Source: Luteibacter sp. OK325 (GTDB taxonomy: Bacteria; Pseudomonadota; Gammaproteobacteria; Xanthomonadales; Rhodanobacteraceae). From it: DNA of 64,000 bases. The stretch covers positions 62,001 to 126,000 of the forward strand of contig NZ_QAOX01000003.1 in NCBI RefSeq assembly GCF_003050935.1, written 5' to 3'. The notes beneath the pieces are model-generated. The model saw nothing but the letters and a program-made list of their open reading frames with translations. It did not search any database and was not told the origin of the DNA. Both the position numbers and the translations under genes were made by a program. Of the stretch, positions 5,203 through 37,825 are shown piece by piece (position 1 is the first letter of the stretch; each line of letters begins with the position of its first letter).

Positions 5203-5801
5203 GCGAGCCACTCCTCGACTTTCTTGACCGCGTCCACCGTCATGACGACGAAGTCGCTACCGACGAGGCTGACCGGATTCAGGGCCAGAACGTCGACGAC
5301 GTGGATGTACGGAATATTGCGAGCGGACAGGTAGAGCGCTTCGGTGGCATCTTCCGACACCAGCAGCACACGACCCTTGACTTCGAGCTGGGCCAGCTTG
5401 GCGATCATGCCCTTGGTGCTCGGGGCTTCGATCGACAGCTCGGGGACAACCTTCAGGCGACCCTGACGGGTCAGCTCGGCAACGATCGAACGGATCGCCA
5501 CACGATAAGCCTTGCGGTTGACCTTCTGCTCGAAGCTACGCGGCTTCGCTGCGAACGTCCTACCACCACCGACAAAGATCGGAGCGCGGTAATCGCCGTG
5601 GCGAGCGCCGCCGCCCTTCTGCTTCTTGAACTTCTTGGTCGTACCGGACATCTGACCGCGAGACAGCTGAGCCTTCGTACCGGCACGGCCAGCCGCCTGA
5701 TAGGCGGTGACAACCTGGTGCACGAGGGCCTTCTTGTACTCGCCGCCGAACACTTCGTCCGACACGGTGAGCGCCTTGGCGCCAATAACGTTGAGTTCCA
5801 T
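5199..5801 (-). CDS. rplD: 50S ribosomal protein L4 (uL4)
   Basis: This 200-residue protein starts [20 protein letters not shown]. The long basic loop [20 protein letters not shown] (about residues 48-67) reaches into the exit tunnel. In E. coli and close relatives L4 also represses the S10 operon through its leader. No convincing E. coli-like S10 leader is seen upstream of rpsJ here, so that regulation is not claimed. Its stop overlaps rplW (ATGA). Confidence 0.97.
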
Positions 5802-5812
5802 GGCGTCTCTCC

Positions 5813-6454
5813 TCAGCCCTTGGTCGTCGGACGAATCACGACGTCACCGCCCGGCGCGCCAGGGACTGCGCCCTTGACTGCGATCAGGTGGCGCTCGGCG
5901 TCGACCTTGACAACTTCGAGACCCTGCTGGGTGCGATTGACCGCGCCCATGTGGCCCGACATCTTTTTACCAGGAAACACGCGACCCGGCGTCTGGCGCT
6001 GACCGATCGAGCCAGGGGCGCGATGCGACAGCGAGTTACCGTGAGTAGCATCGCCCATCTTGAAATGGTGACGCTTGATGGTGCCCTGGAAACCCTTACC
6101 CTTCGACACGCCTGCGACGTCGACCGTCTGACCGACGGTGAACACGTCGTCAGCCTTGATCTCGGTGCCGATCGCGTACTTGCCTGCGTCTTCCGCGGAC
6201 ACGCGGAATTCCCACAGGCCGCGACCCGGCTCAACCTTGGCCTTGGCGTAGTGACCCTTTGCGGGGGCCGTCAGCAGCGACGCGCGCTTGACGCCGGTCG
6301 TAACCTGCACCGCGCTGTAGCCGTCGTTTTCTTCGGTCTTCACCTGCGTCACACGATTCGGGGTCGCTTCAATCAGCGTCACCGGAATCGAGCGGCCGTC
6401 TTCGGTGAAGAGCCGGCTCATGCCGCATTTGCGGCCAACTAGTCCGATACTCAT
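5813..6454 (-). CDS. rplC: 50S ribosomal protein L3 (uL3)
   Basis: This 213-residue, early-assembling protein begins [20 protein letters not shown]. The [20 protein letters not shown] block contains the glutamine that PrmB methylates in E. coli L3, and the extended loop here approaches the peptidyl-transferase centre. It lies 20 bases after rpsJ and 11 before rplD. Confidence 0.98.
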
Positions 6455-8594: not shown

Positions 8595-10718
<2,124 letters not shown>

Positions 10719-10747
10719 GGTCTTTCCTCAATCTGAAGCTGTAGTAA

Positions 10748-11215
10748 TTACCAGCGGTAATGCGAGAAGGCCTTGTTGGCCTCTGCCATACGATGCGTTT
10801 CTTCGCGCTTCTTGACGGCGCCGCCGCGGGATTCCGAGGCTTCGAGCAGTTCGGCGGCCAGCTTGCGCGGCATGGACGTCTCGCCGCGCTTGCGCGCTGC
10901 GTCGATCACCCAACGCATGGCAAGCGCCATACGACGGCCCGGACGGACTTCGACCGGCACCTGGTACGTGGCACCGCCAACGCGACGCGACTTCACCTCG
11001 ACGGCCGGGGCGATGTTGCCCAGGGCCTTCTCGACGAGCTGCACCGGCTCACCATGCTTTTCGCTGATGTGCTGGAGGGCGCCGTAGACAATGGCTTCGG
11101 CAACGGACTTCTTACCGGACTTCATCACCATATTGATGAAGCGGGCAATCAGCTGGCTTCCGTGCTTCGGGTCCGGGAGGACCACACGGGCGGGATGGGA
11201 ACCTTTACGCGACAT
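10748..11215 (-). CDS. rpsG: 30S ribosomal protein S7 (uS7)
   Basis: The 155-residue product has [20 protein letters not shown] (residues 12-31), [20 protein letters not shown] and [21 protein letters not shown]7 nucleates assembly of the small-subunit head and in E. coli represses the str operon from the rpsL-rpsG junction. That junction here is only 16 bases, so an E. coli-type S7 site in the gap is unlikely. It ends HYRW, a slightly longer tail than the shortest family members. Confidence 0.98.
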
Positions 11216-32783: not shown

Positions 32784-33740
32784 TCAGTCGATGTAGAGCG
32801 AGCTTACCGATTCGCCAAAGGCGATGCGGCGGATCGTCTCCGCGAGCAGTTCCGCAACCGACAACTGGCGGATTTTCGCACAGTCGCGGGCGTTGTCGCG
32901 CAACGGCAGCGTATTGGTGACTACCAGCTGGTCGAGCTGGGAGCCTTCGATGTTCTGGATCGCGGCACCCGAGAGCACCGGATGGACGCAGTACGCGACG
33001 ACCTTGCGGGCGCCCTTTTCCTTCAGTGCCGCCGCGGCGGCGCAGAGCGTGCCAGCGGTGTCGACGATGTCGTCCACCAGTACGCAGGTCTTACCTTCCA
33101 CGTCGCCGATGATGTTCATGACCGTGGCCACGTTCGCCTTCGGACGGCGCTTGTCGATGATCGCCAGGTCCGCGTCGTCGAGACGCTTGGCCAGTGCACG
33201 GGCACGTACCACGCCACCGACATCGGGACTGACCACGATCAGGTCGTCCATGCTGTGATGACGCCAGATATCGGCCAGGAGCACCGGCGAGGCGTACACG
33301 TTGTCGACCGGGATATCGAAAAAGCCCTGGATCTGGTCGGCGTGCAGGTCGATCGTCAGAACGCGGTCGGCACCTGCCGTCGCGATCATCTTGGCAGCCA
33401 GCTTCGCCGTGATCGGCACACGCGCCGAGCGCGGGCGACGATCCTGGCGGGCATAGCCGAAATACGGCATCACCGCGGTCACGCTACCGGCCGATGCGCG
33501 CTTGAGCGCATCGATCAGCACCAGCAGGTCGAACAGGTTCTCTGCGCTGGGAGCACCCGTCGGCTGGATGACGAAGACCTCCTGCTTACGAACGTTCTCC
33601 TCGATCTCGACCTGGGCCTCGCCGTCGCTGAACCGGCCGACAAGCGCCTTGCCAAGCGGAATACCGAGACGGGCGGCGACATCGTCGGCGAGCAGACGGT
33701 GCGCGTTACCACTGAACAGCATCGGGGTGGACGTATCCAC
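32784..33740 (-). CDS. prs: Ribose-phosphate pyrophosphokinase
   Basis: Prs makes PRPP from ribose 5-phosphate and ATP for nucleotide, His and Trp synthesis. The GTG at 33740, seven bases after AGGAG, gives 318 residues, the normal length. The open frame runs on upstream through tRNA-Gln but that part is not coding. Motifs are [20 protein letters not shown], the pyrophosphate loop region [32 protein letters not shown], and the PRPP loop [14 protein letters not shown]. Confidence 0.96.
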
Positions 33741-33793
33741 GTAGGAACTCCTGGCATGAGAGAGGGTTGGATCGGCTTTGCCACCGCGAACGG

Positions 33794-33870
33794 TGGCTGG
33801 GGCGGCAGGATTCGAACCTGCGCATGCGGGAATCAAAATCCCGTGCCTTAACCAGCTTGGCGACGCCCCA
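33794..33870 (-). tRNA. tRNA-Gln (TTG)
   Basis: The 77-base cloverleaf has acceptor TGGGGCG paired with CGCCCCA, anticodon loop TTTTGAT (anticodon TTG), T loop TTCGAAT and an encoded CCA. It lies between ispE and prs, a common position in this group. Confidence 0.96.
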
Positions 33871-33910: not shown

Positions 33911-35299
33911 CTACCCGATGCCCGAAGCTTCGATCCGTTGCCGCGCGACATGCAGCGGCGAAGGGTCGACACCCGCTGCCACGTGGGCCCTGAAGCCCCC
34001 GGAACAACGCGAGGCGACCGCAAGGGCCGCCTCGTGGGTTCTCGTTTCCAGGAAGATGCAACCACCACTACCGGACAGGCGCGCGTGGCCGAAGCCGCCC
34101 AGCCAGTCCAGTGCAGCCGCTACCCGCGGGTGACGCGCGCGAACCACCGGCTCGAAGGCGTTCTCCGCGGAATCCCCGGAAACAAAGGATGAAATTGTCG
34201 CCCGCGGGGCATTTCGTGTCAATTCGACAGCCCGGAATAGTGCCGCCGTGGGCACGTTCTCGCGGGGATCCACGACCACGTACCAGCGTCGGGGCAGGCG
34301 CATCGGGGTCAGCTGCTCCCCCACCCCTTCCGCCCAGGCCGAACGGCCGCGGACGAAAACCGGGACATCGGCGCCGAGTTTGACCCCGAGGGCGGCCAGG
34401 GCGTCCTCGTCCAGGCCGGTACGCCAGAGCAGATTCAGCCCTACCAGGACGGACGCGGCGTCAGAGCTGCCTCCACCCAGGCCGCCGCCCATGGGTATGC
34501 GCTTGGCCACATCAATGTCCGCGCCCAGCTCGGTCCGCGTCTCCGCGGCGAGAAGACGGGCAGCGCGGATGGTCAGGTCCGCCTCTTCGGGAACCCCGCT
34601 GATCGGCGTCGGGCGGGTGATCACGCCGTCCCCCCGAATCCGCAGGCGCACTTCGTCGCCCCAGTCCAGCAGGCGGAACACCGTCTGCAACTCGTGGTAG
34701 CCATCGTCACGGCGGCCGACGATGCGAAGGAAGAGATTGAGCTTTGCCGGGGCGGGCCACGCAGTCCAGTCACCCTCTTCCAGGGGTGCCAGCGGGCGAC
34801 TCATGAACACCCGAAGGTGATCGGGGAAGCCGTTTTCGCGATCGCGCTCAAGGGCCCGGGCAAAGGCGGGTCCGTGCTTGTCGACCACGCTGAAGCCGTG
34901 CTTCGCATAGAACGGCGCATTCCACGGGACGTCGGCCAGGGTACCCAGGTCGACCCGGCGATACCCCGCCTCGCGTGCCCACTGGCAGGCATGTTCGAGC
35001 AGGGCCGCGCCGATGCCCTTGCCACCAAAGGCCGGAAGCACGTCGATCTCCGCGACGCCGATCACGTCGGGCGGCCCCTCGGTATCGAGGCAGACGAAAC
35101 CCACGATCTCTTCGTCCACCGTGGCAGCCCACACGAGCCCCCGGACGATCAGCTCACGCACGATATCGCCCGGCAGGGCCATCGACGAATAGGCGTGCCA
35201 CGCCTCGTGCCCACGAAACAGCTCGACGGCGGCCCGCTCGATGGCACAAAGGCGCTCGGCGTCATCCGCGCGGGCGCGGGAGATCTGAAAATTCATCAT
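33911..35299 (-). CDS. ispE: GNAT acetyltransferase fused in frame to 4-diphosphocytidyl-2-C-methyl-D-erythritol kinase (IspE)
   Basis: The 462-residue frame has two domains. Residues 1-170 are a GNAT fold with acetyl-CoA loop [20 protein letters not shown] and the late strand [14 protein letters not shown], ending in [10 protein letters not shown], a typical GNAT C-terminus. Residues 180-462 are a full IspE of the GHMP kinases: [20 protein letters not shown], the ATP loop [20 protein letters not shown], and the last motif [14 protein letters not shown]. IspE phosphorylates CDP-methylerythritol in the MEP isoprenoid pathway. No stop separates the two. An internal ATG (34804, residue 166) lies inside the GNAT end without a Shine-Dalgarno sequence. 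Start 35299 or 35296. Confidence 0.88.
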
Positions 35300-35339
35300 G
35301 GACCGGGGGGCTTCGACAGGGTCGGAGTATAGCGGCGCG

Positions 35340-35957
35340 CTATCGACCGAACGACCAGTTCTCGACGGACAGCCTGACCTTGTAGGGCGCTTTCTCGGCG
35401 AAAACACGGGTCGGCATGGCCGGCTGCCGCGTGGCGTCCCATTGCTTGTAGTCGACGGTCCAGCCGTCCTGGATCAGACGCGATGGCAGACGATCGGTGC
35501 CGAAGGCGATGTCCGCCGGACCGGTGTCGGCACGCAGGCCCAGGGCCCAGCGCTTCAGCTCAGCCAGCGGAATTTGCCAGCCCACGGTGCTGGCCATCAG
35601 GGATTCGGCGTCGGCTCCGCGGCGCGGGCCGCCATCGAGGCCTTCCAGCTCGGCACCGTCAGGACCACCGGTAAGCCGGAACGTACGCCCGGTGATCGGC
35701 CCGCGCACGGTGAATTCGTAGCGCTCGCCGTCCTGTCGCCAGGTCAACGTGCCGGAGTTGCTGTCCTTGCCGTCACTGACGGACAGTTTGCCTTCGAGGG
35801 TCCAGTGGTCCGCATCGGCGAGGCTGCGTTCGCGCTGCTCCTGCATGCCGAGGGTGGTGGAATCGCCCTGCAGGCGCACCGGCGCCCTCGTGGTGGCGCA
35901 GGCGGCAAGCAACAGCACCGAAAGCAGGACGACGTTTTTCTGCAGGAGCCGATTCAT
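35340..35957 (-). CDS. lolB: Outer-membrane lipoprotein receptor LolB
   Basis: LolB inserts lipoproteins into the inner leaflet of the outer membrane. From ATG 35957 the product is 205 residues with a lipoprotein signal MNRLLQKNVVLLSVLLLAAC and lipobox LAAC (Cys20). The mature part has HWTLEGKLSVSDGKDSNSGT, FTVRGPITGRTFRLTGG and WTVDYKQWD, the LolB beta-barrel pattern. The start codon and first five codons lie inside a REP palindrome. A second in-frame ATG in a neighbouring REP (35990) would add 11 residues. Confidence 0.88.
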   Translation of the reverse strand: MNRLLQKNVVLLSVLLLAACATTRAPVRLQGDSTTLGMQEQRERSLADADHWTLEGKLSVSDGKDSNSGTLTWRQDGERYEFTVRGPITGRTFRLTGGPDGAELEGLDGGPRRGADAESLMASTVGWQIPLAELKRWALGLRADTGPADIAFGTDRLPSRLIQDGWTVDYKQWDATRQPAMPTRVFAEKAPYKVRLSVENWSFGR

Positions 35958-36046
35958 CGGCGAAAAAGGTACCTGTAGGAGCCGGTTCATCGGCGAAAAG
36001 CCAACGGAGCGGTGACGCCCATTCGCCGCTGAAGCGGCTCCCACAG
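35942..36046. repeat. REP-type cluster overlapping the lolB start
   Basis: Two tandem units, GCAGGAGCCGATTCATCGGC and GTAGGAGCCGGTTCATCGGC, are followed by an inverted TTCGCCGCTGAAGCGGCTCC unit. The CAT inside the TTCATCGGC arm is the complement of the lolB ATG. Confidence 0.85.
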
Positions 36047-36067
36047 GGGTTCCAGGATGAAGGCCCC

Positions 36068-37825
36068 TCAAGGCTTGAGCTTCCGCTCGGTCCGCTCCAG
36101 GGAAGCGTTCTTCGGATCGATGCGACGCACTTCGTTGAGCACCTTGCGGGCTTCGTCCTGCTCGCCGCGGTTCCACAGCACTTCGGCGAGGTGGACGCCA
36201 ATGTCGGCATCCTTGCGCCTGAGCCAGGCGCTTCGCAGGGTGCTTTCGGCCTGGTCGAGCTGACCCTGGCGAAACTTCAGCCAACCCCAGGAATCCGCGA
36301 CCGACGGGTCGTCTGGACGCGCGCTGCGAGCGGCCTGGATCAGGCTCTGCGCCTCGCCGAGGTCGCGATCGTTGTCGGCCAGCGTGTACCCGAGCGCATT
36401 GCTCGCCTCGATGTCACCCGGTTTGATCTCAAGCACCTTGCGGAAGTCCGCCACGGACTGGTCGATCTTTCCGGCTTCCGCGTAGGCGAGACCGCGGCCG
36501 TAGAGCATGTCGGTGTCGTCGGGCTTGACGCGCAGCGCCTTGTCATATGAAGCCGCGGCGGCGTCGAACTGGCGGGCATCCATGTACAGCTCGCCGTCGA
36601 GTGCAAACGCCTTGAGCAACTGCTCGGGGCGATCCGCATAGGTCGTCTGCAGCTCGGCGACGACTTCGTGTGCGTCGTCGTCCTTGCCTTGCAGGTGCAG
36701 CACGACGGCGCTGCGCACCGAGGCGTCGTAGATGTGCGGATCGTCGTCGCTGACCGCCGCATACCAGTCGAGCGCATCTTCCTGTTTGCCAAGCAGCTCA
36801 GCCAACTGGCCCAGGGTAAAAGCGTTGTCCGACTGGACGCTGTCCGGCTGGTGGCGGATCTCTTCATAGAGGCGACCCACGGCCGCCTTGTCGTCGGCGC
36901 GGGCGGCCAGCGTCATCCGCATCGTATAGGTGTCGCTGTCCTGGGCCCCGGTGGAGAGCAGCTTCGCGGCCGCCTTTTCGTCGCCTCCCTGCGCCAGTAC
37001 GCTGGCATAGGCCAGGCGCAGACGGGTGTTCCGGGGGTCCTTGGCGACCGCCTTGGCGAAGAGCTTCTTCGCGCCCTCCTTGTCGCCAGCGCGGAATTTC
37101 TGCTGCGCGGCCCAGGCGTACGTGGTGCCGTCGTGGAAACGCGCCATGGCTCCGTCACCGACGGATTTTGCGTAGTCGTGCCGACCCAGGTTCTCGCCCA
37201 GCTCGCTCATGGCCAGCCATGCGCTGGAATCGTTGGGCAAGCGCTGCGGCGTAGCGACCCGCTCGAGCAGGACACCCGCCTGGGCAGCGTCGCGTGCACT
37301 CATCAGGGTGCGGCCGATCTCGCGCCAGGCGTCCGGGTCGCCGGTGGCGATCATGGCATTGAGCTGACGCTCCGCTTCCACGGTATCGCCCCGATCCAGG
37401 GCCACCCGCGCCCTGCCCTCGGCCAGATCCAGCGGCTTGCCGTGGAGCGCGGCCCAGCGGTCAAGCGCCTTGGTGGCGGCGGCCTGGTCGTGCACCGCCA
37501 GAGCCAGCTCGGTCGCCCGTCCGGCAACCCGGGGGTCGTCGCTCAGCTGCGCCGCGTTGCCATAAGCCTCGGCGGCGGCCTTGAGATCGTTGGCAGCCAA
37601 CGCAAAATCACCCGCCATGAGTTGGGCCTGGACGTCGCGCTCGGGGGGCAGAATGGCCACCTGAAGCCGATCGAGTGGCTGGACGCCCGTTCGGGTCGCC
37701 CTGGGCGCCTCGGGGGGCGCCATGGCACAGCCGGTAGCGACGGCCGCCAGGCTGACCAGAACCACAAGATGCCGCACTTGCTTGAACTTGGACCGACCGC
37801 TCAGCACACTAGTCTCCGTCATCAT
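36068..37825 (-). CDS. TPR-repeat lipoprotein
   Basis: The ATG at 37825 gives 585 residues with a signal peptide whose lipobox is VATGCAM (VRHLVVLVSLAAVATGC), so it is probably an outer-membrane lipoprotein. The rest is a series of TPR-like helical pairs, clearest in the C-terminal third (DADIGVHLAEVLWNRGEQDE, SNALGYTLADNDRDLGEAQS, VADSWGWLKFRQGQLDQAES). The gene is commonly found next to lolB in this order. It may help envelope assembly, but no specific role is known. Upstream in-frame starts to 37867 are less likely. Confidence 0.8.
   Translation of the reverse strand: MMTETSVLSGRSKFKQVRHLVVLVSLAAVATGCAMAPPEAPRATRTGVQPLDRLQVAILPPERDVQAQLMAGDFALAANDLKAAAEAYGNAAQLSDDPRVAGRATELALAVHDQAAATKALDRWAALHGKPLDLAEGRARVALDRGDTVEAERQLNAMIATGDPDAWREIGRTLMSARDAAQAGVLLERVATPQRLPNDSSAWLAMSELGENLGRHDYAKSVGDGAMARFHDGTTYAWAAQQKFRAGDKEGAKKLFAKAVAKDPRNTRLRLAYASVLAQGGDEKAAAKLLSTGAQDSDTYTMRMTLAARADDKAAVGRLYEEIRHQPDSVQSDNAFTLGQLAELLGKQEDALDWYAAVSDDDPHIYDASVRSAVVLHLQGKDDDAHEVVAELQTTYADRPEQLLKAFALDGELYMDARQFDAAAASYDKALRVKPDDTDMLYGRGLAYAEAGKIDQSVADFRKVLEIKPGDIEASNALGYTLADNDRDLGEAQSLIQAARSARPDDPSVADSWGWLKFRQGQLDQAESTLRSAWLRRKDADIGVHLAEVLWNRGEQDEARKVLNEVRRIDPKNASLERTERKLKP

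Follow-up and report, generated by a model that had tools for sequence, protein, structure and literature searches.

In Luteibacter sp. OK325, and widely among its relatives in the Rhodanobacteraceae, the sequence for IspE, which is essential and has been studied as an antibacterial target, forms the 3′ part of a single reading frame whose 5′ part encodes a GNAT acetyltransferase. Taken as a whole, the arrangement is probably best explained by two self-sufficient enzymes residing in one chain, with the GNAT half having a function that is most likely independent of IspE. This judgement derives from comparison of genomes in which the MEP pathway has been lost: there GNAT is kept under selection while IspE mostly decays, which argues for a GNAT job that does not involve IspE. 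The product would be a bifunctional single chain, made at full length and with both halves active, its N-terminal acetyltransferase acting on a substrate of its own and its C-terminal IspE performing the ordinary step of the MEP pathway, such that neither half would require the chemistry of the other.

The in-frame fusion that a first-pass annotation had proposed at 33911..35299 of the window (the whole stretch of DNA analysed, 64,000 nucleotides) is real. One stop-free frame of 462 residues, on the minus strand (which that annotation had left unnamed), contains both domains at scores over their cut-offs (Table 1). Pfam Acetyltransf_1 is matched over residues 53-136 (60.7 bits; cut-off 20.7) and the NCBIfam ispE equivalog TIGR00154 scores 245.8 bits (cut-off 138.7), with the Pfam models GHMP_kinases_N and GHMP_kinases_C also being matched; the GNAT domain extends from residue 1 to ~169 and IspE from ~178 to 452. 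Within the IspE half K186, [12 protein letters not shown] (271-282) and D311 are all intact, and K186 and D311 are kept in 76/76 aligned rows from outside the set of MEP-less genomes considered below. The catalytic or ATP-site roles of the Lys of PAKLN, of the twelve-letter loop and of the Asp of GADVP are presumed here from E. coli IspE. A second, stand-alone ispE was looked for in the OK325 genome and rejected, the other TIGR00154 match being of only 26.8 bits and far below cut-off, so that the fusion gene is the sole ispE over cut-off. Each of the five MEP genes searched for (dxr, ispD, ispF, ispG and ispH) is over cut-off in that genome, and HMG-CoA reductase has no match there. Gene order 3′ of the fusion is tRNA-Gln, prs, then rplY, pth and ychF, and by eye there is a -10-like hexamer, TATACT, at 35326-35331 (minus strand) in the short stretch that separates lolB from the fusion gene. 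The predicted structure of the OK325 protein has a mean pLDDT of 92.3 and a pTM of 0.92; as a freely hinged two-domain protein is expected to give a lower pTM, the model suggests that the GNAT and IspE domains are in a fixed relative arrangement.

Table 1. The fusion gene of Luteibacter sp. OK325, its parts and its neighbours (window coordinates)
Feature	Position	Strand	Remarks
GNAT-IspE fusion ORF	33911..35299	(-)	462 aa; ATG 35299, stop 33913-33911
GNAT acetyltransferase domain, PA2271-like, residues 1-169	34793..35299	(-)	Pfam, alignment, Foldseek
Linker, ~residues 170-177	34769..34792	(-)	Alignment; residues 171-180 mean pLDDT 94
Internal ATG (Met166)	34802..34804	(-)	Inside last GNAT strand (163-169); without Shine-Dalgarno sequence
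IspE (4-diphosphocytidyl-2-C-methyl-D-erythritol kinase) domain, residues 180-452	33944..34762	(-)	TIGR00154
lolB, upstream neighbour of fusion gene	35340..36098	(-)	Stretch tested, not exact gene start
tRNA-Gln (TTG), downstream neighbour of fusion gene	33794..33870	(-)	
prs (ribose-phosphate pyrophosphokinase), downstream	32784..33758	(-)	Stretch tested, not exact gene start

Long open frames arise easily where GC content is high, and the real test of the fusion is therefore its conservation. When 233 Rhodanobacteraceae genomes were searched with the GNAT domain, and then with the whole fusion protein, a GNAT match was found in 145. In 143 of them its E was 3.4e-43 or better, while G355 and G412 have distant GNAT matches only and are outside the count of 143. 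Both domains are in one frame in 137/143 GNAT-carrying genomes, counting as fused G140, whose two match pieces lie in one stop-free frame; contig ends cut the G105 protein at residue 413 and cause that of G336 to start at residue 23. The six unfused carriers all belong to genus code g7, a Dyella subgroup, and outside the MEP-less set no genome was seen with the fusion split. With the same frame in so many genomes, sequencing or assembly error as the source of the fusion is ruled out. The comparison with related Rhodanobacteraceae that had been proposed as a check also gives a junction of nearly constant length. The gap between GNAT and IspE matches is 21-27 bases in 59 fused loci (two of which are the same place), and, of the 93 aligned rows left after collapsing identical ORFs (87 fused and 6 GNAT-only), the fused ones have a junction stretch of 14 residues in 82 cases and 13 in 5. 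The suggestion that such an arrangement is unusual for IspE is borne out, the fusion being a true single-frame one, but it is Rhodanobacteraceae-wide rather than specific to OK325. Named carriers, among the matches listed, are Luteibacter, Rhodanobacter, Dyella and one Frateuria MAG, and the nearest same-genus relative of the OK325 fusion is the protein of Luteibacter sp. dw_328 (G339; 94% identity). One row, L048, has a stop within the match range, the match overrunning the end of its own frame of 463 residues. At E 1e-60 a match to the fusion protein is absent from G373 (g11, 99% complete) and from four other genomes outside g79. A contig labelled Candidatus Eremiobacteraeota (L114, from G320) bears a Dyella-like GNAT-IspE fusion, and its public label is probably wrong. 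Fused proteins are already in public databases, where the names shown give the kinase alone; a limited literature search, on titles and the starts of abstracts, found no description of an IspE–acetyltransferase fusion, which does not establish absence from print. That the N terminus of IspE is joined to a second enzyme in this family matters both for annotation and for work with the enzyme.

The most informative genomes are the 17 that are MEP-less, comprising 16 of g7 (including D. dinghuensis, G312; D. mobilis, G315; D. acidiphila, G309; and D. lipolytica, G169) and one Rhodanobacter MAG (G400). Among 57 genomes tested, HMG-CoA reductase is present in 20, these being all 16 of g7, G400, G115 and both of the g79 genomes tested. 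Neither ispG nor ispF was found in any of the 17, ispH is in one (G320, a MAG), and ispD is over cut-off in none, the match in G400 being of 144 bits (under cut-off) and those in the others of at most 38.9 bits. Dxr is over cut-off in 1/17, with five more having diverged open frames (all g7) and a further one a split Dxr; searches of G400 yielded no Dxr, ispF, ispG or ispH, and just the sub-cut-off ispD. In the same searches OK325 itself (G000), G115, G085 and G396 had ispD, ispF, ispG and ispH over cut-off. G115 has HMG-CoA reductase and MEP genes together, and its IspE is normal, so that decay does not follow from HMG-CoA reductase alone. In D. dinghuensis a 783 aa HMG-CoA reductase–GHMP kinase fusion (contig L172, 6217-8568, minus strand) neighbours a mevalonate diphosphate decarboxylase (9691-10770) and a Nudix protein (5622-6326), apparently a mevalonate cluster in a gammaproteobacterium. 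Both g79 genomes, G250 and G264, have HMG-CoA reductase, no match to Dxr or GNAT and no IspE over cut-off, and in G264 ispF, ispG and ispH were not found either; g79 is apparently a further mevalonate-using lineage of the family. Two Dxr matches over cut-off per genome are a feature of G085 and G298 (g5).

All 17 MEP-less genomes keep GNAT, which in each differs at 1-4 of 56 near-invariant positions (reference set of 75 rows, L062 being omitted). The fate of the IspE half is varied. Of the 16 g7 genomes, 6 have no IspE half or just a remnant of one, 6 have it in frame but catalytically ruined, and 4 have it with motifs intact or nearly so. Downstream of GNAT no IspE was found in G246, G311, G313, G316 and G317, and in G060 a remnant of it follows in another frame; these six GNAT-only proteins stop 2-3 residues past the position of Leu170. 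The ruined state, with an open frame and a destroyed ATP loop, is repeated outside g7 by the Rhodanobacter MAG, whose GNAT is changed at 1/56 and whose IspE at 44/133 positions, giving seven such rows in all (L023, L025, L027, L029, L031, L037 and, from G400, L041). In these, Asp280 and Gly277 are each changed in 7/7 and Asp311 in 4/7, each of these changes being found in 0/76 rows outside the MEP-less set. The four g7 rows with motifs intact or nearly so are L030, L034, L036 and L038; in L034 the conserved DGYH is without its Tyr201 and His202. One of them, L030 of D. lipolytica, has a nearly intact IspE of 276.9 bits along with a Dxr of 437.1 bits in a genome that is 99% complete. A full-length IspE half is thus still in frame in 11/17 MEP-less genomes, despite ispF and ispG being gone from all. 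The course of events envisaged is that a Dyella subgroup with a mevalonate pathway lost the MEP pathway while selection retained GNAT, and that most IspE halves then decayed as in-frame, kinase-dead tails or were cut after the last GNAT strand.

Estimates of omega (GY+F3X4, with ranges from 20 bootstraps) allow selection on each half to be viewed separately. In g1 the values are 0.051 (0.029–0.069) for GNAT and 0.069 (0.053–0.077) for IspE, in g5 0.032 (0.016–0.045) and 0.074 (0.049–0.085), and in g11 0.101 (0.073–0.138) and 0.121 (0.074–0.148), the point estimate for GNAT being below that for IspE in all three and the bootstrap ranges overlapping in g1 and g11. For the six GNAT-only rows GNAT is at 0.062 (0.041–0.075), for the three motif-intact g7 rows L030, L036 and L038 at 0.084, with IspE at 0.125, and for the six ruined g7 rows at 0.078 (0.044–0.095), with IspE at 0.276 (0.237–0.309). 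Across all 16 g7 genomes, purifying selection on GNAT is strong (omega 0.06–0.09), and from these values it is constrained about as an essential enzyme is, with or without IspE. Ruined IspE appears relaxed yet not free, and in part the restraint may predate pathway loss.

Why dead halves persist at all is pertinent. The seven ruined tails are changed at 28-44 of 130-135 near-invariant IspE positions, and have 0 stops where ~24 would be expected under neutrality, a count that is indicative only, as the lineages are related and stop-bearing lineages would fall in another class; this suggests that a ruined tail must stay foldable, and it may be for foldability that it is retained. The model of the D. 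mobilis protein, which has a ruined tail, has pLDDT 91.5 and pTM 0.91, a confidence similar to that for OK325, although the inclusion of intact IspE rows in its alignment biases the model towards the IspE fold. L136, with a stop codon, and L169 were omitted from the alignment used for structures. Tentatively, kinase-dead IspE in MEP-less Dyella and in the Rhodanobacter MAG might be a pseudo-kinase scaffold or an obligatory folding tail for GNAT, with fusion to a needed gene having shielded IspE from loss of the type suffered by ispF and ispG. If so, what was once an essential enzyme of metabolism now serves an acetyltransferase as an accessory domain. MEP-less Dyella are, in effect, a natural experiment on the fate of one half of a fusion once its pathway disappears, and the questions of whether fusion protects a gene from loss, and whether a dead half can be recruited as a scaffold, become testable in a few named species.

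On a different account, one that also deserves some minority credence, the joining was neutral and the ruined Dyella tails are pure hitch-hikers that are merely not yet erased. Tails have been lost in at least two events (in L035, and in a five-member clade of the GNAT tree) with no obvious change in GNAT, as this account would have it, and unfused Dxr likewise lingers as a diverged open frame in 5/16 g7 genomes, so that survival is not special to the fused gene. However, neither the lack of stops, for what an indicative count is worth, nor an omega for the ruined tails that is not near 1 is what mere delay in erasure would give.

Against independence of the two halves is the persistence, in 4/16 g7 genomes and despite loss of the pathway, of IspE motifs that are intact or nearly so. 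An unlikely explanation is that a second, MEP-independent activity retains IspE in some MEP-less Dyella. The high score of the D. lipolytica IspE, in a genome where ispF, ispG and ispH were not found, nor ispD over cut-off, would accord with it, as would the low IspE omega in L030, L036 and L038, but 7 other MEP-less genomes have a destroyed ATP loop, and two of the three low-omega rows come from less complete genomes (86 and 91%).

A link of isoprenoid flux to acetyl-CoA or to protein acetylation, which the first-pass annotation had raised, is unsupported as the main role. In such regulatory coupling, GNAT would sense acetyl-CoA, or acetylate IspE or other proteins, and so tune MEP flux. Functional coupling of this sort would be in keeping with the rigid predicted arrangement of the domains, with a fusion that was not seen split outside the MEP-less set, and with the sheer number of genomes that remain fused; but with GNAT in all 17 MEP-less genomes, and IspE there absent or a remnant in 6, ruined in 7 and intact or nearly so in 4, and with GNAT in the six that have no full IspE being as constrained as given above, coupling is a weaker reading than that of independent enzymes and has a low probability.

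Two independent enzymes in one chain presuppose that there is one chain. The first-pass annotation had placed the ATG at 34804 within the C-terminal strand of GNAT, lacking a Shine-Dalgarno sequence, and considered it a poor start for separate synthesis of IspE; its position and lack of a Shine-Dalgarno sequence are confirmed, and the wider comparison agrees with the rest, none of the 87 fused rows reaching an anti-SD energy of -6 ahead of the internal ATG. The median there is 0.1, that for background codons being -3.0 (8.9% of them reach -6). For the upstream start the median is -2.5 and 5.7% reach -6, a rough figure, the start taken by the script not being a start codon in L012, L031, L037, L049, L062 and L090; as this is no better than background, the SD test is one-sided. 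The internal Met is in 87/87 fused rows and also in all 6 GNAT-only proteins, and GNAT explains its conservation. Nor is synonymous conservation raised near the internal ATG, at +0.024 for the block 159-170 and -0.037 for 171-182 in a test that omitted L062 (odd start and an insert in IspE) and nine MEP-less rows. Internal translation of IspE is, from these comparisons, unlikely, and the notion that the halves are translated separately, from this ATG or one nearby, with the fusion nominal, can draw on the ubiquity of the Met among aligned fused rows but has very little to recommend it when that Met is just as conserved in proteins without IspE, lies in a GNAT strand and is flanked by neither anti-SD complementarity nor raised synonymous conservation.

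As to how the two halves came together, a tree of the IspE domain (44 fused and 17 unfused rows) needs one change only and is compatible with a single origin, the support being weak (SH-aLRT 77) in a tree with several long branches and a chosen outgroup that no single branch sets apart. At 12 of 13 unfused loci a LolB-like frame stops 2–41 bases short of the IspE match, the thirteenth (L175) being cut by its contig end, and in L063, L174, L066 and L068 this frame extends over the nearest start codon for ispE; LolB similarity was tested for L063 and L066 and judged by eye for the others. A GNAT gene beside ispE and unfused was looked for in outgroups and not seen, a LolB-like frame adjoining ispE in those 12 loci. 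Stand-alone PA2271-like GNATs are present in 14/149 Xanthomonadaceae genomes, and in a GNAT tree six of them, with two distant rows of the family, fall outside the fused group. The simplest history, we infer, is one in which an ancestor of Luteibacter, Dyella and Rhodanobacter acquired a PA2271-like GNAT gene, inserted once between lolB and ispE and joined in frame to ispE. GNAT and IspE trees are in conflict for L052, which, like the weak support for one origin, counts against this account. The GNAT halves of L052 (G327) and L057 (G194) cluster (97*) and the IspE half of L052 clusters with genus g3 (99*), an apparent case of recombination where the two domains meet or close by.

The IspE half closely resembles known IspE. 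With E. coli 1oj4 and K. pneumoniae 8ckh it has 48-50% identity and a TM of 0.94 (by target; for 1oj4, from Foldseek with the predicted OK325 model), and Lys186, the ATP-site loop given above and Asp311 are kept as in those enzymes. The difference is at the N terminus, which is free in known IspE and bears a GNAT of ~169 residues in OK325. For the GNAT half, sequence comparison (E 1.3e-20) and Foldseek (34% identity; TM 0.89 by target) agree that the closest solved relative is PA2271 of Pseudomonas aeruginosa (9cr5), with which it has [10 protein letters not shown] in common. PA2271 is a stand-alone, 174-residue chain whose P-loop begins with Gln, whereas the fusion GNAT has Gly there and IspE attached; among the papers listed in a literature search for PA2271 no function for this GNAT was found, and 57 plasmid records of relatives of the fusion GNAT, all of <60% identity, revealed none.

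That first place bears on the chemistry. G95 and G97 of the P-loop, N127 and Y131 are invariant in 93/93 aligned rows. The GNAT P-loop consensus is Gln/Arg-x-x-Gly-x-Gly (PMC4964394); the first position is G92 in 75/76 rows outside the MEP-less set, and with the Gln/Arg missing the use of acetyl-CoA by the fusion GNAT is not certain. Gly is also there in 8/8 stand-alone relatives, so that it predates the fusion and is no sign of decay after it. The stand-alone GNATs of Xanthomonadaceae are similar to the fused one in other ways, with 38-45% identity over almost the whole domain and, in the six examined, G92, G95, G97, N127 and Y131 as in the fusion; they are away from ispE in 12 of the 14 genomes, those in which both places were located. 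A fused GNAT has a counterpart in PatA (Rv0998) of M. tuberculosis, which has a cyclic-nucleotide domain and a GNAT-like domain (PMC4964394). The nature of the partner differs, however: that of PatA is a sensor controlling acetylation, whereas that of the OK325 GNAT is a metabolic kinase, which in the MEP-less lineages GNAT has outlived.
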